Positions 11,723-27,689 of a stretch of 64,000 nucleotides of DNA are shown here, piece after piece (position 1 is the stretch's first letter; every line of letters starts with the position of its first letter). Source of the stretch: Bordetella genomosp. 13 (GTDB lineage: Bacteria; Pseudomonadota; Gammaproteobacteria; Burkholderiales; Burkholderiaceae_B); contig NZ_CP021111.1 in the NCBI RefSeq assembly GCF_002119665.1, forward strand, positions 372,001 to 436,000. Direction: 5' to 3'. The notes beneath the pieces are model-generated. The model searched no databases and was not told where the DNA came from. It was given only the letters and a program-made list of their open reading frames with translations. The translations under genes and the position numbers were made by a program.

Positions 11723-12289
11723 TTATTGGATCTGCAGAAAGTTGCGCAGCAGGGCGTGGCCATGCTCGCTCAGGACGGATTCGGGATGGAATTGCACGCC
11801 GTAGATGGGCAGCGTCTTGTGCCGCACGCCCATGATGTCGCCGTCGTCCGCCGTGGCGGTGACTTCCAGGCAGTCGGGCAGCGTGCCCGGGTCTATCGTC
11901 AGCGAGTTGTAGCGGATGGCCGTGTAGGGCGTGGGCAGCCCTTCGAAGACATCTGTGCCGCGGTGAGAGATCTGCACCGTCTTGCCGTGCATGATCTGCC
12001 GGGCTCGCACGATGTCGCCTCCATAGGCCGCTCCGATGGCCTGGTGCCCCAGGCACACGCCCAGGATGGGCACCTGCCCGGCGAAGCGCTGGATCAGCGG
12101 CACCGACACGCCCGCCTCGGCCGGCGAGCAGGGGCCGGGCGAGACGCAGATGCGCGATGGCCGCAGCGCGGCGATCTCGTCCAGCGTGATCTGGTCGTTG
12201 CGCGCCACGCGCACGTCCACGCCCAGTTCGCCGAAATACTGGACCAGGTTGTAGGTAAACGAATCGTAGTTGTCTAGCATCAACAGCAT
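11723..12289 (-). CDS. trpG: Anthranilate synthase component II (glutamine amidotransferase)
   Basis: 188 residues, class I amidotransferase that supplies ammonia to TrpE. The catalytic triad is visible: Cys in [12 protein letters not shown], and His and Glu in VQFHPES. The N-terminus [16 protein letters not shown] and the oxyanion motif SPGPCSP are classic for TrpG/PabA; it may also serve folate synthesis. I chose ATG 12289, with GGAG seven bases upstream; a TTG two codons earlier is less likely. It is the first gene of trpGDC and lies about 13.5 kb from trpE, with its own leader region. Confidence 0.95.
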
Positions 12290-12311
12290 GGGCAATCTCC
12301 TTGTTCCTGGA

Positions 12312-12413
12312 GCCGCCGTGCCGGAGAGCTATCTGAGATGCGAACCTGTCACCGGTACCGGCGGCAGGATGCAGTGTGAAACCGCAACGACATGCCGCTT
12401 CCTAGCGGAAGCG
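12312..12413 (-). promoter_or_regulatory. Candidate trpGDC attenuator leader structures
   Basis: On the minus strand CGCTTCC (12413-12407) directly follows two Trp codons and pairs perfectly with GGAAGCG (12402-12396) around a four-base loop, spanning the leader-peptide stop codon. The second arm continues as GCGGCA (12398-12393), which can instead pair with TGCCGC (12366-12361). That segment in turn can pair, as GCCGCCG (12365-12359), with CGGCGGC (12318-12312) near the trpG ribosome-binding site. These mutually exclusive pairings resemble a 1:2, 2:3, 3:4 attenuator. No U-run follows the last arm, so the output could be Rho-dependent or translational. Confidence 0.45.
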
Positions 12414-12452
12414 CCACCACTGAGAGACAGGGGTCGTAGCGATAAAAGGCAT
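12402..12452 (-). CDS. Putative trpGDC leader peptide (16 aa, tandem Trp)
   Basis: A short frame from ATG 12452 to TAG reads MPFIATTPVSQWWRFR. Two consecutive Trp codons (12419-12414) sit immediately before a seven-base-pair hairpin. Position (113 bases upstream of trpG, same strand), size and the tandem Trp codons are exactly those of a ribosome-stalling leader peptide. In Pseudomonas both trpE and trpGDC are regulated by attenuation with such leaders, so there is precedent. The ribosome-binding site is weak, which lowers confidence. Confidence 0.6.
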   Translation of the reverse strand: MPFIATTPVSQWWRFR

Positions 12453-12547
12453 GACAGATATGAGGTGGATGGTGTCGTCGCGCGGGCTTGCCGGCTTCGT
12501 CAGCCCGCCGCCAGACTGCCAGGCGGACGTACGTTGCGTGGGATTCT

Positions 12548-12588
12548 AGCCTGTCGAACTTGTCATGTCGAGCTTCGTTCGACAGGCT
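12548..12588. terminator. 12-bp perfect inverted repeat after the TauD/TfdA-like gene
   Basis: AGCCTGTCGAAC (12548-12559) and GTTCGACAGGCT (12577-12588) form a perfect 12-base-pair stem with a 17-base loop, starting six bases after the dioxygenase stop. It probably terminates or stabilises that transcript and insulates trpGDC from it. The U-run is poor, so it could also be a dispersed palindromic repeat. Confidence 0.5.
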
Positions 12589-12594
12589 GGCGTC

Positions 12595-13734
12595 TTACGC
12601 GGCAACAGCCGGAGCTACGTCTTCTTTCAGCACCAGAGGGCGCCAGGGCCTCAGCGGCATGCCCAGGGTCGCCGCCTGGCGCTTCTCGTAGTCCAGGAAC
12701 TCCTGGGTGATGGCGCTGCCGCGCACCCCGCCGCGCACCGCGCCGGCACGCACGTCGCCGTAATACTCGGCCCAATCGTCAGGCAGGGGCTGCGAACCCG
12801 GCACCGCCAGCCACAGGCGGTACAGATGGCGCTTCTGGTCGGGATCGTCGTGGTCTTCGAAGGGCGTGCGCGAATGCAGGGTCACGTAGTTGTTCAGCAG
12901 CTGCAGGTCGCCGCGCTCCAGTTCCATCGAATAGCACAGCTCGTCGCTGGGCAGCAGCTCGTCCAGCAGGTCCAGGGCTTCTTCCTGCTGCGGCGTCAGG
13001 CGCGGCACCTCGGAGAAGTCGCGCTGGGCGGCCACGGTGTTCTTGCGGTTGGTGCGCGCCGAGAAGAACTCGGGATGGCTGCCGAAGATCGGGCAGCGAT
13101 AGTAGGGCGGCTGGCTGGGGTCCTGCGTGCCCTGGTAGCTGTGGAAGAAGGGGCCTTCCAGCACCGGAATCAGGTCGGGACGGCGGCGCCGCACCGCGTC
13201 GCGCAGGGCGATGGAGCTCACCACCTTGCTCTGGCCGCCCGACTTGGCGGTGCGGCGGCACAGCAGCGCCACCACGTCGCACGAGTCCTGATGAAAGTCC
13301 AGGCCGGCATTGGTGTTGTAGCCGCGGCCGCCTTTCACTTTGTACTCGCCGCCCTCGTTGCGCACGTCGTTGATGAACTGGCTGGCGCGGTTCTGCGTGC
13401 GGCCCACGCCCACGTACAGGCTCATGCCCCAGTAGGCCAGTCGCGATTCGTCTTCCGTCCATTCGTCCACCGGAAAGCCCTTCACCAGGCACATGCCCCA
13501 GCGACCTTGCGTGGTGGCGATGGCGCGGGCCAACGCGTCGCGGCTGGCTGGCGGCAAGGGGAAATCTGATTGCTCCATGGCCAGCAGCGGCTTGGGATGC
13601 GATTTCGCATAGGCCAGCGCATCGCGCACGCCCTGGATCGCCTGTGGCGTCAGGCGAAGCATCCACGAGTTGTCCTGGCGGACCTGTTCCGCCGTCCAGG
13701 CCTGGGGGCGTTCTCGTTGCGTTTCGGTTTGCAT
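12595..13734 (-). CDS. TauD/TfdA-family Fe(II)/2-oxoglutarate-dependent dioxygenase
   Basis: 379 residues. The iron-binding facial triad is visible: HxD as LDFHQDSCD (about residue 187-189) and the distal His in NNYVTLHSRTPFED, followed by the 2-oxoglutarate-binding Arg in RHLYRLWLA. N-terminal GRWGMCLVKGFP is also typical of the family. Members hydroxylate small substrates such as taurine, aryloxyacids or modified amino acids; the substrate is not evident. ATG 13734 is preferred although its ribosome-binding site is weak. The gene stands alone, with no transporter or sulfur gene beside it. Confidence 0.82.
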   Translation of the reverse strand: MQTETQRERPQAWTAEQVRQDNSWMLRLTPQAIQGVRDALAYAKSHPKPLLAMEQSDFPLPPASRDALARAIATTQGRWGMCLVKGFPVDEWTEDESRLAYWGMSLYVGVGRTQNRASQFINDVRNEGGEYKVKGGRGYNTNAGLDFHQDSCDVVALLCRRTAKSGGQSKVVSSIALRDAVRRRRPDLIPVLEGPFFHSYQGTQDPSQPPYYRCPIFGSHPEFFSARTNRKNTVAAQRDFSEVPRLTPQQEEALDLLDELLPSDELCYSMELERGDLQLLNNYVTLHSRTPFEDHDDPDQKRHLYRLWLAVPGSQPLPDDWAEYYGDVRAGAVRGGVRGSAITQEFLDYEKRQAATLGMPLRPWRPLVLKEDVAPAVAA

Positions 13735-14048
13735 AGGCTGTGTCCTGCATGTCGTATGCAAGCAGTCTAGGCAACGTCGTTAGATTAAAAAAGCGAACTT
13801 ATTTGACGAACTTCATAAGAAAATTTGAACAGATGCAGGCAGCGGCAGCGGCTGCGGCCAGGGTCCGCGCCATCAACGGAATTCGCCTGGCGACGAAGAG
13901 ACTCGACAAATGTCCGTCTCTTTGGGAATGTTTCGTGCGGTGCATGACGAAAGCCCTGTGGGCGATCCGGTCTCCCAGGGGCTGGCTGGCGGCATCCTGC
14001 ATGCCGCCGTAGACTGGCCGTCAGGTTTTCCACTCGAAGGAGCGATCG
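13735..14048. other. Intergenic region, AT-rich core
   Basis: About 314 bases between the divergent dioxygenase and the secreted-protein gene. A notably AT-rich patch (about 13775-13835) contains two direct copies of CGAACTT (13795-13801 and 13809-13815) and a CTTAT/ATAAG inverted pair. This is likely promoter/operator sequence for the dioxygenase gene. I see no supportable gene; short open frames here lack ribosome-binding sites and family features. Confidence 0.4.
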
Positions 14049-14480
14049 ATGTCATCCAGGTTTCATCAAGCCAAGCTCGCGTGCGTCGCCGTGGCGATGC
14101 TGGTTGCTTCGGGGGCAGCGTGGTCCCAGGACGGCAAGCCCGAAGTGCGCACGCTGGGCGCTATCAGCTATGTCAGCGGTGGGGTCGGGCACGAGGAAGT
14201 CACCTACATGCGCTCGATCAGTTCCCAGTACAACCTTCAGCTGCTGTTCGCGTTGTCGGATGGCGGCGCCTACGTGTCCGACGTGGACGTCCGCATCAAG
14301 AGCGAGTCGGGACAGGAATTGATGGCGGTGAAGTCGGACGGGCCGATGTTCTATGCGAAGCTGCCTGCCGGCACGTATGAGGTCACCGCGACCTATGGCG
14401 GCAAGCCTCAGACCAGGAAGGCCACCGTGGCCGACAAGGGCGCGGCGTCGATGAAGTTCTCGTGGGCGGGGCCGACCTGA
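14049..14480 (+). CDS. Secreted protein with carboxypeptidase-regulatory-like beta-sandwich domain
   Basis: 143 residues. A Sec signal peptide is clear (LACVAVAMLVASGAAWS, cleavage near AWS-QD). The mature part has DVRIKSESGQELMAVKSDGPMFYAKLPAGTYEVTATYGGKPQTRKATV, the pattern of a CarboxypepD_reg-like/transthyretin-like beta-sandwich (DGxF...LPAGxYxV). It is predicted periplasmic, with no catalytic residues recognised. ATG 14049 is preceded by GAAGGAG. Function unknown; convergent with the LysR gene that follows. Confidence 0.65.
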   Translation: MSSRFHQAKLACVAVAMLVASGAAWSQDGKPEVRTLGAISYVSGGVGHEEVTYMRSISSQYNLQLLFALSDGGAYVSDVDVRIKSESGQELMAVKSDGPMFYAKLPAGTYEVTATYGGKPQTRKATVADKGAASMKFSWAGPT

Positions 14481-14501
14481 CGCGTCGGCGGTTGCCTGGC
14501 G

Positions 14502-15443
14502 TCAGGTCGACGGCGGCTTGGCGGCTGCCTTCGGCGCGCGGGTCCGGGCCTCGGCCTGGCGCCCGTGCCGCGCCGCGGTCTGGCGCAGCAGCGCCGCGAA
14601 GGCGCGCGACAGGCGCGTCTGTTCCACGTCGGCACGCACCAGCAAGCCCGGCGTGCGTATCGGCGTGGGGCTTTCCATGGGCACCAGCACTACGTCCAGT
14701 CCCGGCGGCACCCCGCTGGCCGCGGCGATGGTCGCGATGCGCATGCGCGCGGCCAGGCCCAGCAAGGCCGGCAGGCTGTTCATCTCGGCGCACACCAGGG
14801 GCTGCGCGCCCGCGGCCGCGAAGCACTCGTCCAGCATGCGGCGCGTGGAAAACGAGGCGGGCAGCAGCGCCATCGGCTCGCGGTGCAATTCGATCATGCG
14901 AATGCGCTTGCGGCGTGCCAGAGGATGCCTGGCGCCCACGGCCAGCATCAGCTCTTCGTTGAACAGCGGCTCGAAGCGCAGGCCCAGCGGTAGTATGGGC
15001 CGATAGGCCACGCCCAGGTCCAGCTGGCCGTTGGTGAGGCGCGTGACGATGCCATCGGCCGACAGCTCTTCCACGGAAATGCGCACGGTCGGATTGCGGG
15101 ACAGGAACAGCGCCACGCATTCGGGAACGATGCTGAGATTGAATGTGTGGGTGGCCGCCACGCGGATCGAGCCCGACATCGGCGATTCCGCCGCCTTCAG
15201 TTCGCCCAGGCCCTGGTCTACCTCTTGCAGGGCGCGCGTGGCATAGCCCAGGAATGCCTCGCCTGATTCGGTAAGCGCCACCCGCTTGCCCACGCGGTCG
15301 AACAGCCGGCAGCCGATCTCGTCTTCGAGCTGGCGGATCTGGTGCGACAGCGTGGATTGCGTGACGTGCACGCGCTGCGCGGCCCGCGTGAAGTTCAGCG
15401 AGCCGGCCACCGCCACGAAATACCGGAGATGCCGCAATTCCAT
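14502..15443 (-). CDS. LysR-family regulator of the CoA-transferase cluster
   Basis: 313 residues. The N-terminal helix-turn-helix is MELRHLRYFVAVAGSLNFTRAAQRVHVTQSTLSHQIRQLEDEIGCRLFDR, followed by a CynR/CbbR-like effector domain and an Ala-rich C-terminal tail. I took ATG 15443 because the family begins MELRxLRYF; a TTG one codon earlier exists. It is divergent from the CoA-transferase gene with a T-N11-A box in the shared intergenic region, so it is very probably that operon's regulator. Confidence 0.88.
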   Translation of the reverse strand: MELRHLRYFVAVAGSLNFTRAAQRVHVTQSTLSHQIRQLEDEIGCRLFDRVGKRVALTESGEAFLGYATRALQEVDQGLGELKAAESPMSGSIRVAATHTFNLSIVPECVALFLSRNPTVRISVEELSADGIVTRLTNGQLDLGVAYRPILPLGLRFEPLFNEELMLAVGARHPLARRKRIRMIELHREPMALLPASFSTRRMLDECFAAAGAQPLVCAEMNSLPALLGLAARMRIATIAAASGVPPGLDVVLVPMESPTPIRTPGLLVRADVEQTRLSRAFAALLRQTAARHGRQAEARTRAPKAAAKPPST

Positions 15444-15458
15444 CAATGGCCGTCCGAA

Positions 15459-15473
15459 TGATCGATGCCATCA
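15459..15473. promoter_or_regulatory. LysR-type T-N11-A box
   Basis: TGAT-N7-ATCA is a perfect dyad with the T-N11-A architecture recognised by LysR regulators. It lies 16 bases upstream of the lysR start and about 105 bases upstream of the divergent CoA-transferase gene. The surrounding ATCAATGATAATCAG adds overlapping partial copies. Confidence 0.55.
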
Positions 15474-15578
15474 ATGATAATCAGCAAAATTAACCATTTC
15501 CACAATTTGTAGCCGCCCTTTACGCTGCGGTCTCCGCAATGCCAGCCGCCACACGAGCCGGCGGCCAGGAGACACACC

Positions 15579-16772
15579 ATGCATCACGACCGTACCCCGC
15601 AGACGGACCCGCCCAGGACTGCCAAGGTTCTGGAGGGCATTACCGTGCTGGAGCAGGGCACGTTCATTACCGGACCGGCGGCGGGGATGCTGCTGGCCGA
15701 CCTGGGCGCGGACGTCATCAAGATCGAGCAGCCGGGTGCGGGCGATCCGTTCCGCGCGTTTCGCGGCGGCCTGTACAGCCCGCACTTCCAGACCTACAAC
15801 CGCAACAAGCGCAGCATCACGCTGAACACCAAGACGCCGGAGGACGCTGCGGTGTTCGACGAGCTGGTGCAGCGTGCGGACGTCTACATCCAGAATTTCC
15901 GTCCCGGCGCGGCCGAACGTCTGGGGGCGGGCGAGGCGCGGCTGCGGGAATTGAATCCGCGCCTGATCTATTGCGCCATCAGCGGATTCGGCCAGACCGG
16001 CCCCTCGGCCGGGCGCCCGGCCTACGACACGGTGGCCCAGGCCGCCAGCGGTTTCCTGAACCTGCTGGTCAATCCCGCGAACCCGCGCGTCGTGGGCCCC
16101 GCCATCGCCGATTCGCTGACGGGCTTCTACGCCGCCTACGGCATCCTGGGCGCGCTGGTGGAACGCGCGCGCACCGGCGTGGGCCGCAGCGTCGAGGTCT
16201 CGATGCTCGAGGCCATGTGCCATTTCAACCTCGACGCCTTCACGCATTACTTCTCCGAAGGCGAGGTGATGGGGCCCTACAGCCGCCCCAGCGTCTCGCA
16301 GTCGTACACGCTGCGCTGCGGCGATGGCCGCTGGGTGGCGCTGCACATGTCCTCGCCCGAGAAGTTCTGGCGCGGCCTGGCCGTCGCCATCGAGCGTCCG
16401 ACGCTGTTCGACGATCCGCGCTATGCCACGCGCGAGGGCCGCATCGAGCACCAGGAGCAGTTGATCGAACTGCTGGGCGAGATCTTCGCCACGCGCACGC
16501 GCGACGAATGGTGCGAGCGCCTGCTGGCGCAGGACGTGCCGCATGCGCCCATGTACGACACCAGCGAGGCCTTGCGGGATCCGCAGGCGCGCCACCTCGA
16601 GCTGGAGGTCGTGGGCCGCCATCCCGTGATGGGCGAATGGCGCACCGTGCGCTCGCCCGTCAGCTTCGATGGCGTGCGCGACACGCACGTGGTGCCGCCG
16701 CCCATCCTGGGCGAGCACAACGACGAGGTGCGAGCCGAACTGCGTGCGCGCGACGCGTCCGCCACTGAATGA
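15579..16772 (+). CDS. CaiB/BaiF family (class III) CoA-transferase
   Basis: 397 residues. Motifs include ITGPAAGMLLADLGADVIKIEQPGAGDPFR at the N-terminus, carrying the conserved GADVIKIE, then YNRNKRSITLNTKTPE, and the catalytic Asp region GQTGPSAGRPAYDTVAQAASG, as in formyl-CoA/oxalate or succinyl-CoA:acid transferases. These enzymes move CoA between carboxylic acids. Next to a citryl-CoA lyase-like protein and a tricarboxylate-type binding protein, it probably activates an imported di- or tricarboxylate. The gap to the next gene is only 10 bases. Confidence 0.9.
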   Translation: MHHDRTPQTDPPRTAKVLEGITVLEQGTFITGPAAGMLLADLGADVIKIEQPGAGDPFRAFRGGLYSPHFQTYNRNKRSITLNTKTPEDAAVFDELVQRADVYIQNFRPGAAERLGAGEARLRELNPRLIYCAISGFGQTGPSAGRPAYDTVAQAASGFLNLLVNPANPRVVGPAIADSLTGFYAAYGILGALVERARTGVGRSVEVSMLEAMCHFNLDAFTHYFSEGEVMGPYSRPSVSQSYTLRCGDGRWVALHMSSPEKFWRGLAVAIERPTLFDDPRYATREGRIEHQEQLIELLGEIFATRTRDEWCERLLAQDVPHAPMYDTSEALRDPQARHLELEVVGRHPVMGEWRTVRSPVSFDGVRDTHVVPPPILGEHNDEVRAELRARDASATE

Positions 16773-16782
16773 AGGACTCGAG

Positions 16783-17601
16783 ATGAAGATCGGCAAGACC
16801 ACTGTTCCGCATACTTCCATCAGCACGTCCGACGCGCACACCATAGTGGTGCGCGGCCAGGACCTGTGCAAGGACTTGATCGGCAAGATCTCGTTCACCG
16901 ACTATTTCCACCTGCTGCTGACGGGCAGGCGCCCCGACGCGGCGGCCACCGCGGTCATCGACGCGACGCTGGTGGCCATCGCCGAGCACGGGCTGGTGCC
17001 CAGCGTGCAGGCCAGCCGCATGACCCTGGCCGCCGCGCCCGACGCACTGCAGGGCGCCGTCGCCGCGGGCATCCTGGGCTGCGGCTCGGTGATACTGGGC
17101 GCATCGGAGACGGCCGGCAGGATGTTCCACGAGATCGAGGAACGCGCCAAGGCGGACGGCACGGACCTCGATGCCGCCGCGCTGGCCGTGCTGCGCGAGT
17201 ACCGCGCCGCGCGCCGCGCGATTCCGGGCTATGGACATCCACTGCACAAGGAGCGCGATCCGCGCGTGGGCCGCCTGTTCGACGTGGCGCGCGAATGCGG
17301 CGCCTCGCTGGCCTACGTGCACATCGCCGAGGCGGTCGAGCGCGCCATCCCGCAGATACTGGGCAAGGAATTGAAGCTCAACGTGTCGGCCGCCATCCCG
17401 GCCGTGCTGCTGGGCGTGGGCTTTCCGCTGCTTGCCCTGAAGGGCGTGCCCATCCTGGCCCGCACCGCGGGCCTGATCGCACATCTGAACGAAGAGCTGG
17501 AGCAGTCCATCGGCTTCGCGCTGTCGTACCAGGCCGCGCGAGAAGTGCAGTACGACGGCGCACTGCCGCCAGGGTTCGGCACGGCTGCGGACCCGCACTG
17601 A
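16783..17601 (+). CDS. Citryl-CoA lyase-like protein (citrate synthase fold)
   Basis: 272 residues, about the length of short citrate synthase-family lyases. RAIPGYGHPLHKERDPR holds the conserved active-site His (G-x-GHPLH), and GKISFTDYFHLLLTGRRP is the usual N-terminal element. At the position where citryl-CoA lyases normally carry the catalytic Asp (pattern NVDGAIAA), this protein has LNVSAAIPA, Ser for Asp, so the activity is uncertain. ATG 16783 was chosen; it follows the CoA-transferase stop by 10 bases with AGGA upstream. The pair could form an ATP-independent route: acid to acyl-CoA, then cleavage to acetyl-CoA or a similar thioester and an oxoacid. Confidence 0.75.
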   Translation: MKIGKTTVPHTSISTSDAHTIVVRGQDLCKDLIGKISFTDYFHLLLTGRRPDAAATAVIDATLVAIAEHGLVPSVQASRMTLAAAPDALQGAVAAGILGCGSVILGASETAGRMFHEIEERAKADGTDLDAAALAVLREYRAARRAIPGYGHPLHKERDPRVGRLFDVARECGASLAYVHIAEAVERAIPQILGKELKLNVSAAIPAVLLGVGFPLLALKGVPILARTAGLIAHLNEELEQSIGFALSYQAAREVQYDGALPPGFGTAADPH

Positions 17602-17647
17602 TTCCACCCATCCGGGCAATCCAAGAAGAGAGAGAGAGGAGAGACAC

Positions 17648-18649
17648 ATGGCAATCATCAAATCCCCCACCGGTGCGCGTGCGCTGCGCCGGTCGCTGCT
17701 CGGCCTGACGCTGGCTACGGGACTGCTGGCCCAGTTGCCCGCGGCCGCGCAATCGCCGGATTTCCCATCGCGTCCGATCAGGATGGTCGTGCCGTTCGGC
17801 GCGGGCACTTCCACCGACATCGTGGCACGCGTGATGGCCGAGGCGATGGGCAAGTCGCTGGGCCAGACCGTCATCGTCGAGAACCGCGCCGGCGCGGGCG
17901 GCACCATCGGCACGGACTTCGTGGCGCGCGCGCCCGCCGACGGCTACACCATCGTGATGGGCACCGTCGGCACGCACGCCATCAACAAGTCGCTCTACCG
18001 CAAGCTGGCCTACGATCCGATCAACGACTTCGCGCCCATCTCGCTGGTCGGGCAGACGCCGACGCTGCTGGTGGTCAGCGCCAACTCGCCCTACAAGACG
18101 CTGAAGGACCTGGGCGCCGCGGCCGCCAAGTCGCCCGGCGTCAGCTTCGCCTCCGCGGGCAGCGGCACGTCGGGCCACCTGGCCGGCGAACTGCTGAAGT
18201 CGCGACTGGGCGGCGAGATGGTGCACGTGCCGTACAAGGAAGGCAGCATGGCCGTGTCCGACGTGATGTCGGGCCAGGTGCAATTCATGTTCTATCACCC
18301 CACCGCCGTGCTGCCGCACATCCGCGCGGGCAAGCTGCGTGCGCTGGGCGCATCCAGCGCGCAGCGCAGCTCGGCCGCGCCCGAGGTGCCGACGGTGGCC
18401 GAACAGGTCGGCGGCGATTTCGACCTGGTGGCCTGGTTCATGCTGTACGCGCCGCAGGCCACGCCGGCGCCTGCCTTGCAGAAGCTGCGCAATTCCGCCG
18501 CCGCCGCGCTGGCCAGCGCGGACGTGCGATCCAAGCTGAGCGCGCAGGGCCTGGAAAAGGGCGCAGCAACGGATCTGACCGCATTCGGCAAGGCCGAGGT
18601 CGCCAAGTGGGCCGACCTGGTGCAGAAGTCCGGCGCTCAGGTCGACTGA
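17648..18649 (+). CDS. Bug-family tripartite tricarboxylate transporter-type substrate-binding protein
   Basis: 333 residues. A signal peptide ([20 protein letters not shown]) is followed by [23 protein letters not shown], the signature start of Bug/TctC receptors, with later [19 protein letters not shown] and [21 protein letters not shown] typical of the family. These periplasmic proteins bind carboxylates such as citrate. No membrane permease (TctA/TctB) is nearby, as is common in Burkholderiales. GGAG precedes ATG 17648. It is the third gene of the CoA-transferase operon. The last 13 bases overlap the convergent chemoreceptor gene. Confidence 0.92.
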
Positions 18650-20310
18650 GACTGAGTCCGCCGGCGCGCGGCCGGTACATAACCTTCGCCGGGCCGGCCG
18701 CGCGTCTGGTCGGACAGCAGTCCCGCTGCTGTGCCGACCAGGCCGACCCGTGCCGGCGGTTCTCCCTCCGGAATGCGGAACGTCGACACGGCTTGCACGA
18801 CCTCATCGCACCGCGATTTCAGCGCGGTGGCGGCGGTCGCCGTCTCGTCGACCAGTTGGGCATTCTGCTGCGTGACCCGCTCCATCTCGCTGGCGGCCAG
18901 GCTGACCTGCTCGATGCTGTCGGACTGCTCGGCCGTGGCTGCCGCGACCTCGTCCAGCGTTTCCATGACCTGGTGCGCGCTCCCGACGATCTGCCGCATG
19001 GTCTGATCCGCCTGTGTGGCACGTGCAGCGCCCCGGGCCACTTCGGCGGCCGAATCCTCGATCAGCGCCCTGACTTCGCGCGCGGCTTCCGCGCTGCGCA
19101 GCGCCAGGCCGCGAACTTCGGCGGCCACGACGGCGAAGCCCTTGCCATGGCCACCGGCGCGCGCAGCTTCGACGGCCGCGTTCAAGGCCAGCAGGTTGGT
19201 CTGGAACGCGATGCCGTCGATCACGCCCACGATGTCCTCGATCTTGCGCGAATGCGCGGATATGCGCTCCATGGTCTGGGTGATCTGCGTCACGGCCTGG
19301 CCCGCGAGTTCCGCTTCGTCCGCGGCGCCCCGCGCCAGGTCGCTGGCATGCCGCGCGTGAGCCGCATGCTGCTTCACCGCGCCCGACAGCTGCTCCAGCG
19401 TCGTCGCCGTCTGCTCCAGGGCCGCGGCCTGTTGCTCGGTGCGGGCCGCCAAGGCCACGTTGCCGTCGGCGATGTGGCGCGCGCCGTCGTCCACCGCCGC
19501 GACGCCCGTGCGGATGGAAGAGACAGTCTGGGTGAGCGCGCGCTGCATGCGTTGCAAGGCGGACAGCAGCGCACCGATCTCGTCGGCGCGGCCGTTCGCC
19601 GATACCATTTCGACGAGGTCTCCGCTGGCGAGGCGGTCGAAGTGCCGCGCGGTCCGATGCAGCGGCTCCAACAGGCCGCGTCGGAAGAACGCCGCGCCCA
19701 GCATGGCCAACACCGCGGATAGTCCCAGCATGCCGAGCGCGAGCCACGCGGCGCGCGCCGCCAGGGTATCGGCTTGCCGTTGCAAGGCCTGGTGTTTCGA
19801 CTTGGCCTGGACCAGCACGTCGTGCAATACGGCACCGAAGTCCGCGTCGGCCTGGTCCGCCGTCTGCGTTGCCGCGGCATAGCTGTCCAGCGAGACCTCG
19901 TACAGCGCCTCCTCGCGCAGGCCCAGCACCTGCGCGTAGCGGTCGTAGGCCTGCACGGCGCGCGCCGCCCACGGATCGTCGGGCGCCGCGGCGTGGCGGT
20001 AGGCCTCGAAGGTCTTGCGGGCCTGCTGGATTGCAGCGGACGCCTTGCGCGTGTAGTCGTTGGCGCCGATCTGGTCGCCGCGCTGCAGGTTGATGTAGGC
20101 GTTGTTCATGTTGACCAGCGCGGACAGCAACAGCCGGCCGCTATCCTGCAACGGCTGCATCTGATCGCTGGACAGGCGCGCCATCGCGTCGACCGCGCGG
20201 GCGGACTGGCGCGCGTCGCGCCAGGCCAGCCCGGCCGACAGCCACAACGCGATCGAGAAAACGCCCAGCACCAGCCATAATCCGGTGCGCAGCTTCAACT
20301 TGGCTAGCAT
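18637..20310 (-). CDS. Methyl-accepting chemotaxis protein
   Basis: 557 residues. A first transmembrane segment spans about 10-30. A periplasmic helical domain (about 31-185) of four-helix-bundle type follows. The second transmembrane segment is about 187-208 ([21 protein letters not shown]), then HAMP (about 209-262) and the signalling domain. The conserved hairpin tip [41 protein letters not shown] is intact. No C-terminal NWETF-type CheR/CheB tether is present; the tail is basic and Ser/Gln-rich. The ligand is unknown. No other chemotaxis gene lies nearby. It is convergent with the Bug gene, so it might sense the same carboxylate. Confidence 0.93.
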
Positions 20311-20355
20311 GGCAAGACAGCTCCGTACGGGCGGCGCCCGGGGGACAGTGGACGA

Positions 20356-20832
20356 CTACTTGATTCCGAGTGCGCGATCCAGAGACCATGCGCCGGCGCC
20401 GCGGCCTACCAGATACAGCAACGGCGCGGCCCATGACAGATGCGTGGGCCAGGCATCGGGATAGACGAACGTCTGGATGACAGCGGTCATGCCCAGCAGC
20501 GCCAGCGCCGAGGCGCGCGTGGCCAGGCCCACGACAAGCAGCAACGGAAAAAGATGCTCGGCGTAGGCGGCCAGGTGCGCCGCCAGTTCCGGCGCGATGA
20601 GCGGCAGTCGGTATTCCTCCCGGAACAGCGCATAGGTGCCGTCGGTCACCGTCAGCAGCCCGGTCACTTTGGTGCGGCCCGACAGAAAGAAGATCGCCGC
20701 GATGCCCAGGCGCGCGGTCATCGCCAGCAGCGAGTCGCCCAGCAGCCGCGACAGGACCCCGGCGCAGTCGTTCCAGCGTTCGCTAAGCCCGTTGCGTGAG
20801 CTTCGGGTGATGGAAGTGGCGGTATTCATCAT
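20356..20832 (-). CDS. DoxX-family membrane protein of the bufferin operon
   Basis: 158 residues with four hydrophobic segments. The DoxX pattern is visible in [21 protein letters not shown] and [43 protein letters not shown]. DoxX proteins commonly close DUF2282-DUF692-DUF2063 operons (HvfD/BufD position); the role is unproven, possibly redox or quinone-linked. ATG 20832 (GAGG eight bases upstream) is preferred over 20859. The start lies within the end of bufC, so it is translationally coupled. Confidence 0.82.
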
Positions 20833-21628
20833 GTGAGAGCCTCGAGTTGACCGGACCATCGCCCGGCGTGCATGAGAGGTCGATCGAGCCCAACGCGCCC
20901 GATTCGATCAGGCCGGCAAGCAATCGTGCGATGTCCAGTGCCGGCTCCGCACCTACGGCGTGCTCGGCGGCCGTCGCCAGCGCCAGTCCCGCCGCGCAGG
21001 CGTCCAGGAACGCGCAGGCGCCCGGCCCGGCAGCCTGCCCGCCCACGACGCCATCCTGGCGTGTCATCAAGACGCCGTCGCCTTGCCAGCGCAGTTCGTC
21101 AGTCATTGGCGAGGCTGAGCGGTTGGCCTGCCAGATGGCATACACGGGAAGCTCGGCATGCCAAGCCCATCGGGCAGCCGGATGAGGGCGTACGACCAGG
21201 CCGCCCAGCGTCTCGCCAGACATTCCGGCGAGCGCCTGGCCGCTCAATGGCGGCAGGTCGGCCGCGCAATGGGATTGCGTCCACAGCCGGTCCAGCCGCG
21301 CCACGCCAGGCAGGTACGGCAGTTCGCGCGCAGGCTCGAACCCTTCCAGGAAGTCGGCGAATCCGGCGCCATAGTCCAGCAATGCCGCCGTTGTCGGCGG
21401 TTCAATGCGCACGTGGATCGCAGCCGCGGCCCGGAACCAATCGTCGCCCACCAGGCGCGCGACGCTGGGAAAGTTCGCCTGCAATGCGTCGACGCATCCT
21501 TTGATGACCGTGTTGCGGTACACCGCGAAGCCGGGCTGCGCCGTCAGGGCCGCCATCGACACCGGCTCATCGCCCGGATGCAGCAAGGCCCGCACAAAGT
21601 CGTGCTGGTAATCGGCGAGCGAGCCCAT
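20783..21628 (-). CDS. bufC: DUF2063 partner protein of the bufferin system (BufC/HvfC)
   Basis: 281 residues. The N-terminal DUF2063 domain is clear: [47 protein letters not shown] and the following [21 protein letters not shown]. MbnC/BufC-type proteins of this family partner with the DUF692 iron enzyme for precursor recognition. It starts at ATG 21628, sharing one base with the bufB stop (GTG 21631 is an alternative; GAGGAGG lies upstream). Its 3' end overlaps the DoxX gene. The tight overlap supports a stoichiometric complex with BufB. Confidence 0.85.
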
Positions 21629-22461
21629 CACGCCGCCTCCTCGTGGACGTCCAGCACCCGCCGCGCGCGTCGCGCTTCGCGCATCAGGTGGGCAAAGGCG
21701 GGAATGGCATCGTCGCGTTCGATCAGCGTAGGAAGGGGGCCGGCGAGCTCGATGACATGTTCGTAAAGTGCCCAGACGGCGGGCGCGACAGGGGCATCGT
21801 GACTGTCTATCAGTAGGCCGGATGCCGCTTCGTCCCGACTATGCCCCGCCAGATGGATCTCCATCACCGCGTGCAGCGGAAAGGCTTGCAGATAGTGCAT
21901 CGCGTCGAAGCCCAGGTTGTGCGCGCTGACGTGCACGTTGTTCACGTCCAGCAGCAGGCCGCAGCCCGTGCGGCGGGCCAGTTCGGCCAGGAAATCCGTC
22001 TCGCTCCAGTCGTGTCCGTCGATGCGCAGATAGTGCGACGGATTTTCGACCGCGATGCGACGACCCAGTACGTCCTGTGTATGCGCGACGTTGGCGCTGA
22101 TCCGGGTCAGCGCCGCACGCGTACGCGGGACGGGAAGCAGGTCGGGGTAGTAGTGGCCATTCCAGGCAGACCACGCGAGATGCTCGGACATCAGCACCGG
22201 CTCGATGCGGTCGGCCAACCGCGCCAGCCCCCGCAGGTGCTGCTCGTCGAGGGGCGCGTCCGCGGCCAGCGACAGCGCCACGCCGTGCAGCGATATGGGA
22301 TGACGGCCACGCACCGCCTCGAGCCAGGCCAGGCGCGGCCCGCCCGCGACCAGGTAGTTCTCGGGATGAACCTCGAACCACAGGCCGGGGGCGGACGCCG
22401 CGAGCGCGTCCTCGTAGTGCTGCGGCTTCAGGCCGAGGCCGGCGCCGAGGTATGTGGCCAT
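21628..22461 (-). CDS. bufB: DUF692 multinuclear-iron peptide-modifying oxygenase (BufB/HvfB)
   Basis: 277 residues, TIM-barrel DUF692 enzyme related to MbnB and TglH. Candidate metal ligands are visible in order: ISLHGVALSL, MSEHLAW, AVENPSHYL, LLLDVNNVHVSAHNLGFD, MEIHLAGHS and DSHDAPV. MbnB/BufB enzymes use an iron centre and O2 to convert precursor cysteines into heterocycles (oxazolone/thioamide or thiooxazole). The precursor gene bufA lies 22 bases upstream and the partner bufC overlaps downstream, so BufA is the expected substrate. Confidence 0.88.
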   Translation of the reverse strand: MATYLGAGLGLKPQHYEDALAASAPGLWFEVHPENYLVAGGPRLAWLEAVRGRHPISLHGVALSLAADAPLDEQHLRGLARLADRIEPVLMSEHLAWSAWNGHYYPDLLPVPRTRAALTRISANVAHTQDVLGRRIAVENPSHYLRIDGHDWSETDFLAELARRTGCGLLLDVNNVHVSAHNLGFDAMHYLQAFPLHAVMEIHLAGHSRDEAASGLLIDSHDAPVAPAVWALYEHVIELAGPLPTLIERDDAIPAFAHLMREARRARRVLDVHEEAA

Positions 22462-22483
22462 GATGCGGGCGCGCCCTGTCGGA

Positions 22484-22777
22484 TCACGAACCGAGCGGCG
22501 TCAGCGAGCCCATGCCCTTGGGAGTCTTGATCGACGTGCACGTGCCGGCCGGCACATTCTTCCAGGCGTTGCCTTGATAATCGACCTTGGAGGTGCCGGC
22601 GCACGTGGTGCCCGCGCCGGCCTTGCAGTCGTTCTGGCCGGCCAGCGACACGCCATAGCACTTCTCGACGGCGGTGGGCGCGGCCTTCGAGGAAGACTGG
22701 GTTTGTTGCGCCATGGCGGCGCCCGAGGCGAGGGCGCCGAGCGTGAAGGCGACGGTGGCGAGGTTGCGAACGTTCAT
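22484..22777 (-). CDS. bufA: Bufferin precursor (DUF2282, BufA1-like), secreted copper-binding RiPP
   Basis: 97 residues. A Sec signal peptide (cleavage near AMA-QQ, residue 23) is followed by a mature part with four cysteines: C40 in [16 protein letters not shown]51, C59 in AGTTCAG, and C80 in WKNVPAGTC. The EKCYG, AGxNDC and WKxVPxGTC motifs define DUF2282 proteins. In Caulobacter these are bufferins whose cysteines are converted to thiooxazoles that chelate copper; in Haemophilus the HvfA system is related. It is a periplasmic metal buffer by inference. GAAGGA precedes ATG 22777, and a perfect sigma-F-type promoter lies about 75 bases upstream. Confidence 0.88.
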
Positions 22778-22853
22778 GGTTTGATTCCTTCAAGAGTGAG
22801 TTGCGGTATCGACCTCCGCCACAGCCCGTGCTGCGCGTCGATCTGAGATGTAG

Positions 22854-22879
22854 TTCGTCGCCGCTCGCCGTCCGGTTAC
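22854..22879 (-). promoter_or_regulatory. ECF sigma (sigma-F-like) promoter of the buf operon
   Basis: On the minus strand GTAACC (22879-22874), a 16-base spacer and CGAA (22857-22854). This is exactly the GTAACC-N16-CGAA motif described for Caulobacter sigma-F, which drives DUF2282/DUF692 operons. The predicted start near 22847 leaves a leader of about 70 bases before bufA. Confidence 0.8.
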
Positions 22880-23020
22880 GCCGCACGGCAGATTTTTTTT
22901 CTGGCGCGCTGAACGTCCGCCACACCGCGCCGGTCTCTTTCTCGACACATCGACCTTTCCGTCGCGCGGCCGTCGCCGGCGCGGGCAGTAGAATGCGTGG
23001 GAATTTTTTTCGACAGCCCT

Positions 23021-23046
23021 GTAACCAGAACGCGTCATGGAACGAA
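23021..23046 (+). promoter_or_regulatory. ECF sigma (sigma-F-like) autoregulatory promoter
   Basis: GTAACC (23021-23026), a 16-base spacer and CGAA (23043-23046) repeat the buf promoter motif on the opposite strand, 141 bases away. This predicts autoregulation of the sigma factor gene. The -10 element lies downstream of the apparent ATG (23037), so a transcript from this promoter would not contain that ATG. Confidence 0.7.
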
Positions 23047-23609
23047 CGACAAAGGGAGGGCCGCAGCAGTCCGTCGAAGCGCGCTTGCAGGCGCTGTTCG
23101 CGGCCGGGCTGTCGGGTGACGCGGCCGCCTACCACGCGTTCCTGGACCAGCTCAGCAGCCATCTGCGGGCGTTTCTCAGGAAGCGCCTTTATCGTCTACA
23201 GGACGAGGTCGAAGATCTCGTCCAGGAAGTCCTGATTGCCGTGCACAATGGACGCCATACATACCGGCCCGGAGAGCCGCTGACGGCATGGGTGCATGCG
23301 ATCGCGCGCTACAAGCTGGCGGACTTCCTGCGCGGCCATTCGCGTCACGGATTGCTGAACGACCCCCTGGACGAGCAGATGGACATCTTCGCCTCCAGCG
23401 ATACCGAGGCGGCTGAAGCGCGGCGCGACGTGGGCAAGCTGCTCGAGCAGTTGCCCGACCGGCAGCGGCTGCCCATCGTGCACGTCAAGCTGCAGGGCCT
23501 GTCTGTGGCTGAGACGGCGCAGCTGACGGGCCTGTCGGAGTCCGCGGTGAAGGTCGGGGTGCACCGTGGGTTGAAGGCCCTGGCGGCCAGGATTCGAGGC
23601 AAATTATGA
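23037..23609 (+). CDS. sigF: ECF RNA polymerase sigma factor (SigF-like)
   Basis: Up to 190 residues. Region 2 is [61 protein letters not shown]; region 4 is [44 protein letters not shown]. It would direct transcription of the divergent buf operon. The start is uncertain: ATG 23037 has no ribosome-binding site and lies upstream of the predicted transcription start, while AAAGGGAGGG sits at 23051-23060 and the family N-terminus fits an in-frame TTG at 23085. The stop overlaps the anti-sigma gene by four bases. Confidence 0.88.
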
Positions 23610-24247
23610 AAACAAGTGACATGGTGACGCTGTTGGCTTCCGGCGTCGAACCGGTGGATCGCCGTGTGGTGCCCAAGCGGTTCGCTCTGGCGATACTCGC
23701 GGGCGGGCTTGGCTCGGCCTTGTTGATGGTGCTGATGTTCGGCCCGCGGCCGGATCTGGTCGAAGTGATGCGCACGCCGCTGTTTTGGGCCAAGGTGGCG
23801 TTTCCCCTGTGCCTGGCGGCCGCCGCGTTGTGGGTTGCCGCGCGCCTGTCGCGGCCGGGCGTGGCCGTGGGAGCAGGCTGGGTGGCCCTGGCCGTGCCTC
23901 TCGTGGTGACCTGGCTGGCCTCCGCGTTCGTGTTGCTCGAGGCCTCCGCCGGCGCCCGCGTGCCGTTGGTCCTGGGCAGTACCTGGCGCACCTGCCCGGT
24001 CAATATCGCGCTGCTGTCGATCCCGTCATCCCTGGCCGCATGGTGGGCGATCAAGGGGTTGGCACCGACGCGGCCGCGCCTGGCTGGCGCTGCCGGCGGC
24101 CTGCTGGCCGGAGCCGTCGCGACCGTCGCCTATTGCCTGCACTGCCCCGAGATGCAGGCGCCGTTCTGGGCGGTGTGGTACGTGCTGGGCATGCTGGTTC
24201 CGACCGCGCTGGGCGCGCTGCTCGGGCCGCGCCTGCTGCGCTGGTAG
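23606..24247 (+). CDS. nrsF: NrsF/OsrA-type (DUF1109) membrane anti-sigma factor
   Basis: 213 residues with six predicted transmembrane segments (about 26-46, 58-78, 85-110, 128-148, 157-176, 186-210). Cysteines C130 (STWRTCP) and C180 (YCLHCPEM) occupy the positions of the two cysteines required for metal sensing in Caulobacter NrsF/OsrA (about 131 and 181); C177 is extra. It would hold the sigma factor inactive at the membrane until copper or another thiophilic metal or oxidant alters the cysteines. It is translationally coupled to sigF (ATGA overlap). Confidence 0.85.
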
Positions 24248-24283
24248 GGTCCGCGCCGCCGGCGCGCGCCGCGGCAGCGCCGC

Positions 24284-25624
24284 CTACCCAGGCCGCCTGT
24301 ACGTCACCCGATAGACGGTGCCATTCGCATCCTCGCTGAACAGCATCGAGCCGTCCTTCGCGAAGGTCACGCCCGCCGGTCGGCCCCATACCTCGCTGCC
24401 GTCGCCGGCGGTGAAGCCCGTGACGAAGTCCTGGTATTGCCCCGTGGGCTTGCCGTCCTTGAACGGCAACCGCACCACCTTGTAGCCGGTGCGATTGGCG
24501 CGATTCCACGAGCCGTGCAGCGTCGCGAACGCGTCGCCCTTCCACTCGTCGGGAAACTGGCCGCCCGGATTGAAGGCCATGCCCAGCGGCGCCGAATGCG
24601 CCTGCACCAGCACGTCGGGCACGATCACCTTGTCCGCCAGATCGGGCCGGCGTCCGCCCGAGGCGCGCGTATCCTCGTTCTTGCCGATGTAGTACCACGG
24701 CCAGCCATAGAAGCCGCCTTCCTTCACGCTGCTGATGTAGTCCGGCGGCAGGTCATCGCCCAGCATGTCGCGCTCGTTGGTGGCGCAGTACACCGTGTCC
24801 GTGCCGGGCTGCAGCGCCAGGCCCGAGCAGTTGCGCACGCCGTTGGCATAGACGCGGCGGTTCTTGCCGTCGGGGTCGTACGCCAGCACCGCGCCCCGGC
24901 CTTCTTCCTCGCCCCAGGCGGCGCCCACGCCGTGCGCCTTTTCGTGCGCGGCCAGGTCTGCCGGACGATCGCCCATGCCTTGTCCGGCGTTGCCGTCGGA
25001 GCCCACGGCAACGTACAGCACCTTGCCGTCGGCCGAGAACGCGATGTCGCGCGTCCAGTGCCCGCCGGTGGGCAGCTTGGCGATCACGGTCTCGGCCTTG
25101 CCGGAGGCCTTCAGGTCGCCGTTCCTGTAGGCATAGCGCACCACGCTCCCCGGCTGCGCCACGTACAGCCACTTCGGCTCCGGCCCGGGCGGATAGAACG
25201 CCAGGCCATACGGGTCGTCCAGGCCTTTCGCGAAGTCGGACACCGAGGCTTTTCCATCGGCCTGCTGGCGGATGACCACGACGCGGCCGTTGCGGCTGAG
25301 GCTGGCGAACACGTCGCCGTTGGGCGCCACACGCAGGACGCGCACTCCCTCCAGTCCGGTAGCCAGCGTTTCGACGGTGAAGCCCGGCATGGTCTTGGGC
25401 GCCGCTCCTGGTGGACGGTCGCCGACGCGCGAGGCGTTCGCGCGCGACGAACGTGGATCGGAGGGCGGCATATCGCCGGGCCGGATGTGGCGCATCACGC
25501 CCGGCGCATCGCTGCGCCAGTCGCCATAGGCGCTTGCGCCGGTGCGCACGTCCTGCGCCGCGGCCGGGGCGGCCATCGACAGGACTGCGATTGAACACGC
25601 GATTCCGACCAGCTCTTGCTTCAT
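24284..25624 (-). CDS. PQQ-type sugar/L-sorbosone dehydrogenase-like periplasmic beta-propeller
   Basis: 446 residues. A signal peptide (GIACSIAVLSMAAPAAAQD) is followed by six-bladed propeller features of the sorbosone dehydrogenase/GDH-B family: FTVETLATGLEGVRVLRVAPNGDVFAS, DDPYGLAFYPPG, GGHWTRDIAFSADGKVLYVAVGS, GVRNCSGLALQPGT, EGGFYGWPWYYIG, and AHSAPLGMAF...GDAFATLHGSWNR. Members oxidise sugars or aldoses with PQQ in the periplasm, but many have unproven activity. ATG 25624 was chosen, with AGGAG seven bases upstream. It is convergent with nrsF, and lies 167 bases past the trpE stop on the same strand. Confidence 0.82.
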   Translation of the reverse strand: MKQELVGIACSIAVLSMAAPAAAQDVRTGASAYGDWRSDAPGVMRHIRPGDMPPSDPRSSRANASRVGDRPPGAAPKTMPGFTVETLATGLEGVRVLRVAPNGDVFASLSRNGRVVVIRQQADGKASVSDFAKGLDDPYGLAFYPPGPEPKWLYVAQPGSVVRYAYRNGDLKASGKAETVIAKLPTGGHWTRDIAFSADGKVLYVAVGSDGNAGQGMGDRPADLAAHEKAHGVGAAWGEEEGRGAVLAYDPDGKNRRVYANGVRNCSGLALQPGTDTVYCATNERDMLGDDLPPDYISSVKEGGFYGWPWYYIGKNEDTRASGGRRPDLADKVIVPDVLVQAHSAPLGMAFNPGGQFPDEWKGDAFATLHGSWNRANRTGYKVVRLPFKDGKPTGQYQDFVTGFTAGDGSEVWGRPAGVTFAKDGSMLFSEDANGTVYRVTYRRPG

Positions 25625-25791
25625 TTGCCGCTCCTGAGTGGGTTGCACCGGGCGCATGCCGCGCGCCCGGCCAGGGTCACCAGCAACGATTTAGGCGGAA
25701 TCGCCGGATTGCGCAAGTCGCCGCGTGCGGTGCGGCGTGCTTGCCCCGAGGGTGGGGCGTCCCGGCGCAACCACGCGGGCGGCCTGCGCCT

Positions 25792-27360
25792 TCAGCGCGG
25801 TTCGTCCAGCCCGTGCTGCACCTGCTCGGCCGCGCGAAGCACGGCGCGCGCCTTGGCCTCGGTCTCGGCCCATTCGGCCTCGGGGCTGGAGTCGGCGACG
25901 ATGCCCGCCGCCGCCTGCACGAACAGCGTGCCGTTCTTGATGACGCCGGTGCGGATGGCGATGGCCACGTCCATCTCGCCGCCATAGCTCAGGTAGCCCG
26001 CCGCGCCGCCGTAGATGCCTCGCCGCACCGGCTCGAGCTCGTCGATGATCTCCATCGCGCGCACCTTGGGCGCGCCCGTCAGCGTGCCGGCGGGGAAGGC
26101 CGCGCGCAGCACGTCCATGCTGGTCATGGACGGATCCAGCGTGCCCGCCACGTTCGACACCAGATGCATGACGTGCGAATAGCGTTCGATGACCATGGTG
26201 TCGCTGACCTTCACCGTGCCGGTCTGCGCCACGCGACCCACATCGTTGCGCGCCAGGTCGATCAGCATCACGTGCTCCGCGATCTCCTTGGGATCGGCCT
26301 GCAGTTCGCGCGCGAGAGCCGCGTCTTCTTCGGGCGTGCCGCCGCGCTTGCGCGTGCCGGCCAGAGGGCGGATGGTGATCTGCGACTTCGGCTCGCCGTT
26401 CTCGACGATGCGCTCCTGCCGCACCAGGATCTCGGGCGATGCGCCCACCACCTGGAAATCGCCGAAGTTCCAGAAGTACATGTAGGGCGAGGGATTGAGC
26501 GAACGCAGGGCCCGGTACAGCGACAGCGGCGCGTCGCGAAACGGCTTGGCGATGACCTGTCCCACCTGCACTTGCATCAGGTCGCCCGCCGCGATGTACT
26601 CCTTGGCGCGGCGCACGGCGGCCAGATAGTCTTCTTTGGCGAAGTCGCGCCGTTCCTGGGTCTGCATGCTGGCGTGGCTGTACGGAATGTCCACGGGCTT
26701 GCGCAGGCGCGCGCGCAGGTCCAGCAGGCGCTGCTGCGCGCGGCTGTAGCTCTCCGGCTGCGCCGGGTCGGCGTACACCATCAGGTAGATGCGGCCGGCC
26801 AGGTTGTCGACGATGACCAGTTCATCGACGTGCATCAGCATGATGTCGGGCGTGCCGCCCTCCATGCCGGCCGGGAAGGGCTTCACCGCCGGGCCCAGGC
26901 GCGGTTCGATGTGGCGCACGGTGTCATAGCCGAAATAGCCGGCCAGTCCGCCGCAGAAGCGCGGCATGCCCGGGCGCAACGCGACCTTGAAGCGGCCTTG
27001 ATATTGTTCGATGAAGGCTAGCGGATCGCCTTCATGGCTCTCGACGACCGCGCCGTCGCGCAGCACTTCCGTCAGCGTGCCGCTGGCGCGGATCACCGTG
27101 CGCGCGGGCAGGCCGATGAACGAGTAGCGTCCGAAGCGTTCGCCGCCCACCACCGATTCCATCAGGCAGGTGTAGGCGCCGTTCTGGTGGTGTGTCCCGC
27201 CGGCCGTCGGCCCCGCGCTGGCCTGCCCGCCCGTCGGGCCGCTGTGGGCCAGCTTCAGGTAGATGGCAAGGGGCGTGTCCAGGTCGGCATAGGTTTCCGC
27301 CACCAGGGGAATGCGGTTGTAGCCTTGGGCGGCCAGCGCCTTGAATTCAAGTTCGGTCAT
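25792..27360 (-). CDS. trpE: Anthranilate synthase component I
   Basis: 522 residues, chorismate-utilising enzyme that makes anthranilate with TrpG ammonia. The feedback Trp-binding segment near the N-terminus includes [19 protein letters not shown] (the LLES-type motif). The catalytic core shows [55 protein letters not shown] and [55 protein letters not shown] 27360 was chosen by family alignment; ATG 27372 is possible. It is preceded by a Trp-rich leader peptide and an intrinsic terminator. trpG is not next to it. Confidence 0.95.
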
Positions 27361-27407
27361 GTCGGATCTCATGTTGGGATCAGGATGAGGAACCGGGCGC
27401 GCGCAAC

Positions 27408-27438
27408 AAAAAACCCGGTCCTGTGCAGGTTCCGGGTT
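27408..27438 (-). terminator. trpE attenuator terminator
   Basis: On the minus strand AACCCGG (27438-27432) and CCGGGTT (27418-27412) form a seven-base-pair stem. A further CCTG/CAGG pair lies inside (27429-27426 with 27423-27420). Six U residues follow (27413-27408). It lies between the Trp-rich leader and trpE, the textbook position of a transcription attenuator. GTTCCCGG just after the leader stop (27486-27479) can compete for the CCGGAAC part of the stem (27436-27430), giving a plausible antiterminator. Confidence 0.85.
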
Positions 27439-27487
27439 CGGTATCTTGCTGCTGCGGCGTGGCGCGTGCGCCAACGCCGGGAACGAT

Positions 27488-27565
27488 TCACCGCCACCCG
27501 GAGGACGAGCGCCACCAACGCCAGCGGGCGTTTGCGAGGGCCAGTACGGAAGCCGGGGCGGTCAT
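27488..27565 (-). CDS. trpL: trp operon leader peptide (25 aa, four Trp)
   Basis: A 25-codon frame from ATG 27565 to TGA. It begins [13 protein letters not shown] and continues [12 protein letters not shown], with Trp codons at residues 15, 17, 18 and 24. It lies on the trpE strand, 50 bases before the attenuator terminator. A ribosome stalling at the Trp cluster when tryptophan is scarce would free the antiterminator, raising trpE expression. The ribosome-binding site is weak by eye, normal for leader peptides. Confidence 0.85.
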
Positions 27566-27689
27566 TGGACAGTGGGGTGGGACGAGTGTGTTGAAGAAAC
27601 GCCCGGCAAATATACCACTGGTTCAAAGCCCTGCCTGTCATGGGGTGATGAAGGGGCTGATTCGAGTATCGGCAAACACACTGCGGCGC

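Follow-up and report, generated by a model that had tools for sequence, protein, structure and literature searches.

A Buf1-type bufferin operon and its predicted ECF16 sigma/anti-sigma switch in Bordetella genomosp. 13

Bufferin operons paired with genes for an extracytoplasmic function (ECF) sigma factor and its anti-sigma factor are already known in other bacteria, and here we describe a further case, in Bordetella genomosp. 13. It lies in a 64,000-nucleotide stretch of contig NZ_CP021111.1 (positions 372,001 to 436,000), which is called the window below. In Caulobacter, the same gene set (CC3252-CC3257; CCNA_03273, 03362-03366) has GTAACC-N16-CGAA promoters and an NrsF anti-sigma factor with two conserved cysteines, and is induced by copper; further targets of the Caulobacter sigma factor SigF are a second DUF2282/DUF692/DUF2063 operon and an MsrPQ pair (PMC3511200, PMC8224329). 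In Sinorhizobium meliloti, the ECF16 pair rpoE7-ecfR7 is divergent from four targets, SMb20527-SMb20530, that were called orthologous to CC3254-CC3257. This locus has two matching promoters and is missing from some strains, and rpoE7 differs from the window gene in its GTG start (PMC6180224). The beta-proteobacterium Cupriavidus metallidurans carries the same six genes, also divergent, as gigPABT-rpoQ-rsqA (PMC10304878, PMC11022561), and gig operons have been recognized as bufferin clusters (PMC12452194). The ECF16 pairs of Brucella melitensis and Azospira suillum have the same type of sigma factor and NrsF, and the Brucella promoter is also of the same type (PMC8315932, PMC5748585). The original prediction for this DNA had presented the locus as a self-contained island. 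As something new this does not stand, because the same neighbourhood has been reported in Caulobacter, Sinorhizobium and Cupriavidus.

We consider it about 80% probable that the window carries a bufferin operon of the Buf1 type, controlled by an ECF16 sigma/anti-sigma pair of its own, with copper as the most likely signal. The genes and sites concerned are the following.

22484-22777, minus strand: bufA, Buf1-type (DUF2282) precursor with four cysteines (PF10048, 87.7 bits)
21628-22461, minus strand: bufB, MNIO (DUF692) bufferin maturase (PF05114, MbnB_TglH_ChrH, 332.3 bits; NF050167)
20783-21631, minus strand: bufC, DUF2063 partner protein of the MNIO enzyme (PF09836, 79.7 bits)
20356-20859, minus strand: doxX, GigT-like DoxX membrane protein, last gene of the operon (PF07681, 58 bits)
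22854-22879, minus strand: predicted SigF-type promoter of bufABC-doxX, exact consensus, its end 77 positions before the A of the bufA ATG
23021-23046, plus strand: SigF-type site at the sigma gene, exact consensus, over the presumed ATG at 23037-23039
23037-23609, plus strand: ECF16-type sigma gene, sigF/rpoQ-like (PF04542 Sigma70_r2, PF08281 Sigma70_r4_2; NF009188, 319.4 bits, cutoff 250)
23606-24247, plus strand: nrsF anti-sigma gene, product with six long helices (PF06532, 254.3 bits)

All six proteins scored above the Pfam cutoffs for the families named, and together with the NCBIfam matches this bore out the proposed identities of the six genes. The coordinates and strands likewise confirmed that the sigma gene and the gene for the six-helix NrsF are divergent from the buf operon. 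The sigma factor has regions 2 and 4 and an adjoining gene for a six-helix NrsF/DUF1109 partner, the combination by which an ECF16/NrsF pair is recognized, and Pfam placed both the DUF2063 partner and DoxX in the cluster. The window BufB passed the NCBIfam maturase model NF050167 (MNIO_BufB, 369 bits against a cutoff of 310), while BufA fell far below the BufA2 model NF050166 (Cu_RiPP_BufA2, 22.6 bits against 60), so the cluster belongs to Buf1 and not Buf2. DoxX remained under the cutoff of the HvfX model (NF050144, 44.1 bits against 80). The genes had been described as overlapping tightly. This holds for bufB and bufC, which share 4 nucleotides, but not for bufA and bufB, which are separated by a 22-nucleotide gap. 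The 77-nucleotide overlap of bufC and doxX belongs to the longest doxX open reading frame and depends on the start chosen, an in-frame ATG at 20832 or 20829 being likelier.

To compare the locus with its relatives, we scanned genomes with an alignment of 25 NrsF proteins and took the best 80 of 355 loci, ranked by similarity to the window NrsF; the locus counts therefore cover near kin only, and counts out of 81 include the window. NrsF was found in 26 of the 151 genomes of a family sample (25 above cutoff) and in 81 of the 398 genomes of a phylum sample (75 above cutoff). The window BufA has cysteines at positions 40, 51, 59 and 80, and each was invariant in all 42 sequences aligned (the window protein and 41 distinct homologs from the loci covering at least 60% of its length). 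This and the DUF2282 match support the reading of bufA as a four-cysteine bufferin gene. In Buf1 bufferins, the middle cysteines are the modification sites (PMC12452194). BufB, whose solved MNIO relatives include 3bww, 8hci and MbnB, retained H59, H94, E139, D172, H203, D219, H221, E248 and D250 in 37 of 37 sequences. A sequence search of the PDB with BufA gave no match. Judged by eye, the N-terminus of BufA resembles a Sec-type signal, with an arginine near the N-terminus, a hydrophobic stretch and the motif AMA-Q. The peptide had been called secreted, which would be better worded as exported to the periplasm.

A regulatory link was indicated by the DNA between the two gene groups. The Caulobacter SigF consensus is GTAACC-N16-CGAA (PMC3511200). 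This pattern occurred exactly twice in the 64-kb window against an expectation of 0.01, none of 100 shuffles contained two matches, and the two sites lie at bufA and at the sigma gene, the two expected places. With up to two mismatches allowed, the window held 40 matches against 27 expected, so only exact matches carry weight. The transcript of the Caulobacter counterpart begins 61 nucleotides before the start codon (PMC3511200), a spacing comparable to the 77 positions in the window. Among the 80 near loci, 30 had doxX-bufC-bufB-bufA divergent from sigF-nrsF, 43 had sigF-nrsF but showed no buf gene within the stretch examined (some stretches being short), and 7 had other arrangements. When bufA and sigF were counted as divergent at less than 6 kb apart, 32 loci qualified, including four with about 4.6 kb between the two genes (L060 and L063-L065). 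The bufA-side site was exact in 29 of these 32 loci and had one mismatch in the other 3, whereas simple shuffles led us to expect 0.015 loci. Control of the buf operon by the SigF-like factor is thus well supported by sequence conservation, and the proposed link between the pair and the operon is now more firmly based than before. Across the genomes of 12 relatives, the exact motif showed no excess (98 occurrences against 115 for a reversed-pattern control), which fits a small, local regulon. Six loci from Caballeronia and Burkholderia (L001, L030, L039, L040, L051 and L071) contained 5-6 exact sites in a span of about 17 kb, and the local regulon may be larger in these loci.

The Cupriavidus proteins are 52-72% identical to those of the window over the aligned parts, with the DoxX counterpart 72% identical to window DoxX over residues 29-167. 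For the gig operon, no promoter was found upstream, and control by RpoQ was described as undemonstrated, in the available text of the reports (PMC10304878, PMC11022561). In the DNA record of C. metallidurans CH34, which has no annotation at this place, we found both exact SigF sites back to back between gigP and rpoQ, and they directly predict a promoter for gig. Two differences were apparent. The rpoQ-side site of CH34 lies about 158 nucleotides ahead of the position aligned with residue 1 of the sigma factor (extrapolated from residue 28), whereas the window site lies over the presumed start; and the gig locus is on a chromid, whereas the window locus is in the trp region.

NrsF of the window has cysteines at positions 69, 130, 177 and 180. 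An AlphaFold2 model built from 25 sequences had a mean predicted local distance difference test (pLDDT) score of 90.7 and showed six long helices, with C130 opening the fourth helix and C177 and C180 coming after the fifth. In this model C130 and C177/C180 would lie on the same side of the membrane, the periplasmic side if the N-terminus is cytoplasmic. Foldseek matched the model to no solved structure at an E-value of 0.001 or lower, and a PDB sequence search with NrsF gave no match. Among 147 distinct NrsF proteins from the loci, a cysteine was kept at C130 in 136, at C180 in 143 and at C177 in 79. In the 52 proteins less than 45% identical to the window NrsF, the corresponding numbers were 41, 49 and 2, so C177, which the Caulobacter NrsF lacks, is an addition typical of the near lineage. 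C130 and C180 had been described as the positions that sense metals in Caulobacter. Their retention was confirmed, but metal sensing as an established fact had to be rejected. In Caulobacter, C131S/C181S raised basal expression and freed SigF, and the single mutants still responded to stress (Kohler 2012, PMC3511200); in the available text these data stop short of direct sensing, and metal sensing by the two cysteines goes beyond what has been published.

Seven loci of the same family (L127, L128, L129, L131, L132, L133 and L135; L152-L154 are the same places, re-centred) carried doxX, a second NrsF gene, sigF and NrsF on one strand, so that one sigma gene lies between two anti-sigma genes. 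The SigF site was not found in the 3.6 kb examined at each of these loci.

By analogy with the studied relatives, the system may work as follows. NrsF would hold the sigma factor at the inner membrane until it is acted on by a stress in the periplasm, for which excess copper is the likeliest candidate; C130 and C177/C180 may mediate this step. The freed sigma factor would then transcribe bufABC-doxX from the site at 22854-22879. BufB, together with BufC, is predicted to turn the middle BufA cysteines, C51 and C59, into thiooxazoles, and the peptide, exported by Sec, would trap copper in the periplasm, with DoxX having an undefined membrane role. Copper is the best-supported signal by analogy, which leaves the earlier proposal of metal-triggered production plausible. 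In Caulobacter, the SigF regulon with the bufferin operon, SigF and NrsF was among the few gene groups that copper raised in each of the two cell types and the two media tested; a sigF::Tn5 mutant was copper-sensitive and grew poorly with copper (PMC8224329). The gig operon of C. metallidurans was induced by copper and gold (PMC10304878, PMC11022561).

Several observations weigh against this reading. Window NrsF scored 143.8 bits against a cutoff of 300 for the equivalog model NF042994 (AntiSigF_NrsF), although its residues 1-213 align with 1-214 of the model. Deletion of rpoQ raised gig expression in metal-treated C. metallidurans (PMC10304878, PMC11022561), and RpoE7 of S. meliloti showed no increase with cadmium, chromate or H2O2 (PMC6180224). 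ECF16 pairs with other targets differ from the proposed copper switch in their signal, answering to hypochlorite in B. melitensis and, as cited there, in A. suillum (PMC8315932, PMC5748585). The pair in the window might accordingly sense hypochlorite or other thiol oxidation instead of copper, with the bufferin operon belonging to a response that repairs the envelope and is only indirectly induced by copper. The 43 near loci with no buf gene found beside sigF-nrsF are in keeping with this. We opened five of them, and four (L002, L054, L035 and L001) had genes for a cytochrome b561-like protein and an MsrP-like molybdopterin oxidoreductase behind an exact SigF site; L002, L054 and L035 also encoded a methionine- and lysine-rich MXKDX-type protein, completing the kit of hypochlorite defence. 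Eight of these proteins were run against Pfam (three matched cytochrome b561, three matched molybdopterin oxidoreductase, and two of the MXKDX type had no match), and the rest were assigned by eye. However, the fifth locus, L044, had none of this kit, and the partner in the window is a bufferin operon. Copper also induced the Caulobacter SigF regulon in a medium with little sign of oxidative stress (PMC8224329), and it induced gig in C. metallidurans. We therefore regard an oxidant-sensing pair as unlikely in the window, and prefer copper as the signal.

The second SigF site covered the presumed sigma start in 63 of 81 loci, with GTAACC in 59 and GTAACT in 4. Motif positions 17-19, where the presumed start codon falls, read ATG in 60 loci and GTG in 1; both remaining loci have ACG, with an ATG in the same frame three codons further on. 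This layout was seen in 28 of the 32 divergent bufA/sigF loci. L070 was counted among the other 18 loci, although the layout is present in a second copy of the sigma gene, which lies at the end of its stretch. If CGAA serves as the -10 element, transcription would start at about codons 5-7 of sigF, and the SigF-driven mRNA should lack the presumed sigma start in the overlapping loci. Beyond near kin, a class-wide pattern search matched 3 of 369 genomes (NrsF carriers among the 369 were not counted); only the match in the centre genome was a sigF start, the other two being unrelated, so with no further sigF case in the 368 other genomes there is no evidence that the layout is common outside near kin. 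We considered and rejected a housekeeping promoter immediately before the sigma gene, as 32 representatives showed no conserved housekeeping -35 element. By base composition, the same representatives have a tract rich in A and T some 10-18 positions ahead of the SigF -35 element, and a promoter further upstream may exist. The available text of the SigF/NrsF, ECF16-promoter and gig/RpoQ literature contained no mention of a SigF site over the sigma start, a silence that is weak evidence.

One way to read this overlap is that the site acts in this lineage as a built-in brake and not as an auto-activating promoter, since a SigF polymerase bound across the start codon cannot make an mRNA with that start. 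If so, it would block transcription arriving from upstream, or its mRNA would yield NrsF without a full sigma factor, and switching on would raise the anti-sigma relative to the sigma factor. We put this forward only tentatively and think it rather improbable, as the CH34 site lies well upstream of the sigma start and not over it, and Caulobacter sigF itself rises with copper (PMC8224329), the start layout there being uncompared. That rise also suits an ordinary auto-activating promoter at 23021-23046, with the ATG at 23037 unused and the sigma factor starting further down. The window ATG has no clear Shine-Dalgarno sequence, and a purine-rich, Shine-Dalgarno-like AAGGGAGGG lies at 23052-23060, within the sigma open reading frame just after the SigF site; there is, however, no in-frame start at the usual distance from it, and the first in-frame ATG, GTG or TTG after the ATG is a TTG at 23085. 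In several loci from the phylum sample, the likely start is downstream of the site. A natural variant of the start-codon layout was seen in L075, where a stop closes the early sigma frame, the site has one changed base, and an apparent GTG start at codon 10 follows a purine-rich stretch.

The evolution of the codons after the ATG speaks for its use, as does the predominance of ATG or GTG at this codon. From 70 loci, 64 of them distinct, 59 were used in 24 pairs, each locus once; the analysis covered only loci with ATG or GTG at that codon and pairs of 75-97% identity. Of the 38 changes in codons 5-9, 21 were at third positions (p 0.004); codons 10-16 had 82 changes, 46 of them at third positions (p 2e-5). 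This is a coding-type pattern, while four upstream blocks showed no third-position bias in the same pairs; the p values are only indicative because the pairs still share ancestry. Codons 2-4 had 4 of 7 changes at third positions, too few to tell. No in-frame stop preceded residue 40 of the sigma frame in the 70 loci. On the other hand, a stricter protein filter, which left 21 loci and 8 pairs, gave p 0.056 for codons 5-9 and weighs against use of the ATG. Taken together, the coding-type evolution suggested that the ATG at 23037 is in use, and an unused ATG is a possibility that we would still bet against.

The block holding the buf locus had been said to separate trpE from trpG, and this was confirmed. 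In the window, trpG lies at 11723-12295 on the minus strand (GATase, 204.7 bits) and trpE at 25792-27474 on the same strand. The interval 12296-25791 also contains a LysR regulator, a CoA-transferase III, a citrate-synthase-like protein that matches only the C-terminal part of its profile, and a TctC binding protein. We compared the 12 trpE loci that were the best matches, 147 of the 151 family-sample genomes having a trpE match. In 8 of the 12, trpG directly follows trpE, and in 3 it is 3.8-11 kb away. The genome with the most similar trpE (91%), G477, had no trpG within the 19.7 kb examined, and beside its trpE are the same LysR, CoA-transferase, citrate-synthase-like, TctC and dehydrogenase genes as in the window. 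The collinear stretch of G477 (L123) aligned by blastn with 14532-18698 at 82.9% and with 24298-27572 at 83.8%, with nothing reported between:

18699-24297, no strand: block without counterpart in the collinear G477 stretch, comprising nearly all of a chemotaxis receptor gene together with the buf operon, sigF and nrsF (blastn against L123)

In place of this block G477 has a PpiC-type gene, and it carries two NrsF genes elsewhere. Because G477 lacks the block and its trp genes are still separated, the trp separation and the gain of the block (or its loss in G477) were separate events. The absence of the block from the closest relative found might also mean that it is a patchily distributed accessory cassette that this strain uses little or keeps silent. 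The restriction of NrsF to 26 of 151 family-sample genomes agrees with that view, as does the S. meliloti counterpart, which was not induced by the three stresses tried (PMC6180224). Yet all six reading frames are open, both promoters are exact, and the conserved BufA cysteines and BufB histidine, aspartate and glutamate residues are intact, so a silent cassette appears very improbable to us.

This locus adds to the known pairings in that each of the two predicted switch sites is present in the DNA as an exact match, and that the site on the bufA side is conserved among relatives. The comparison also points to a definite promoter for gig in Cupriavidus, an operon whose control by RpoQ had been described as undemonstrated. 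Finally, the overlap of a SigF site with the sigma start codon in many near relatives poses a small regulatory puzzle.

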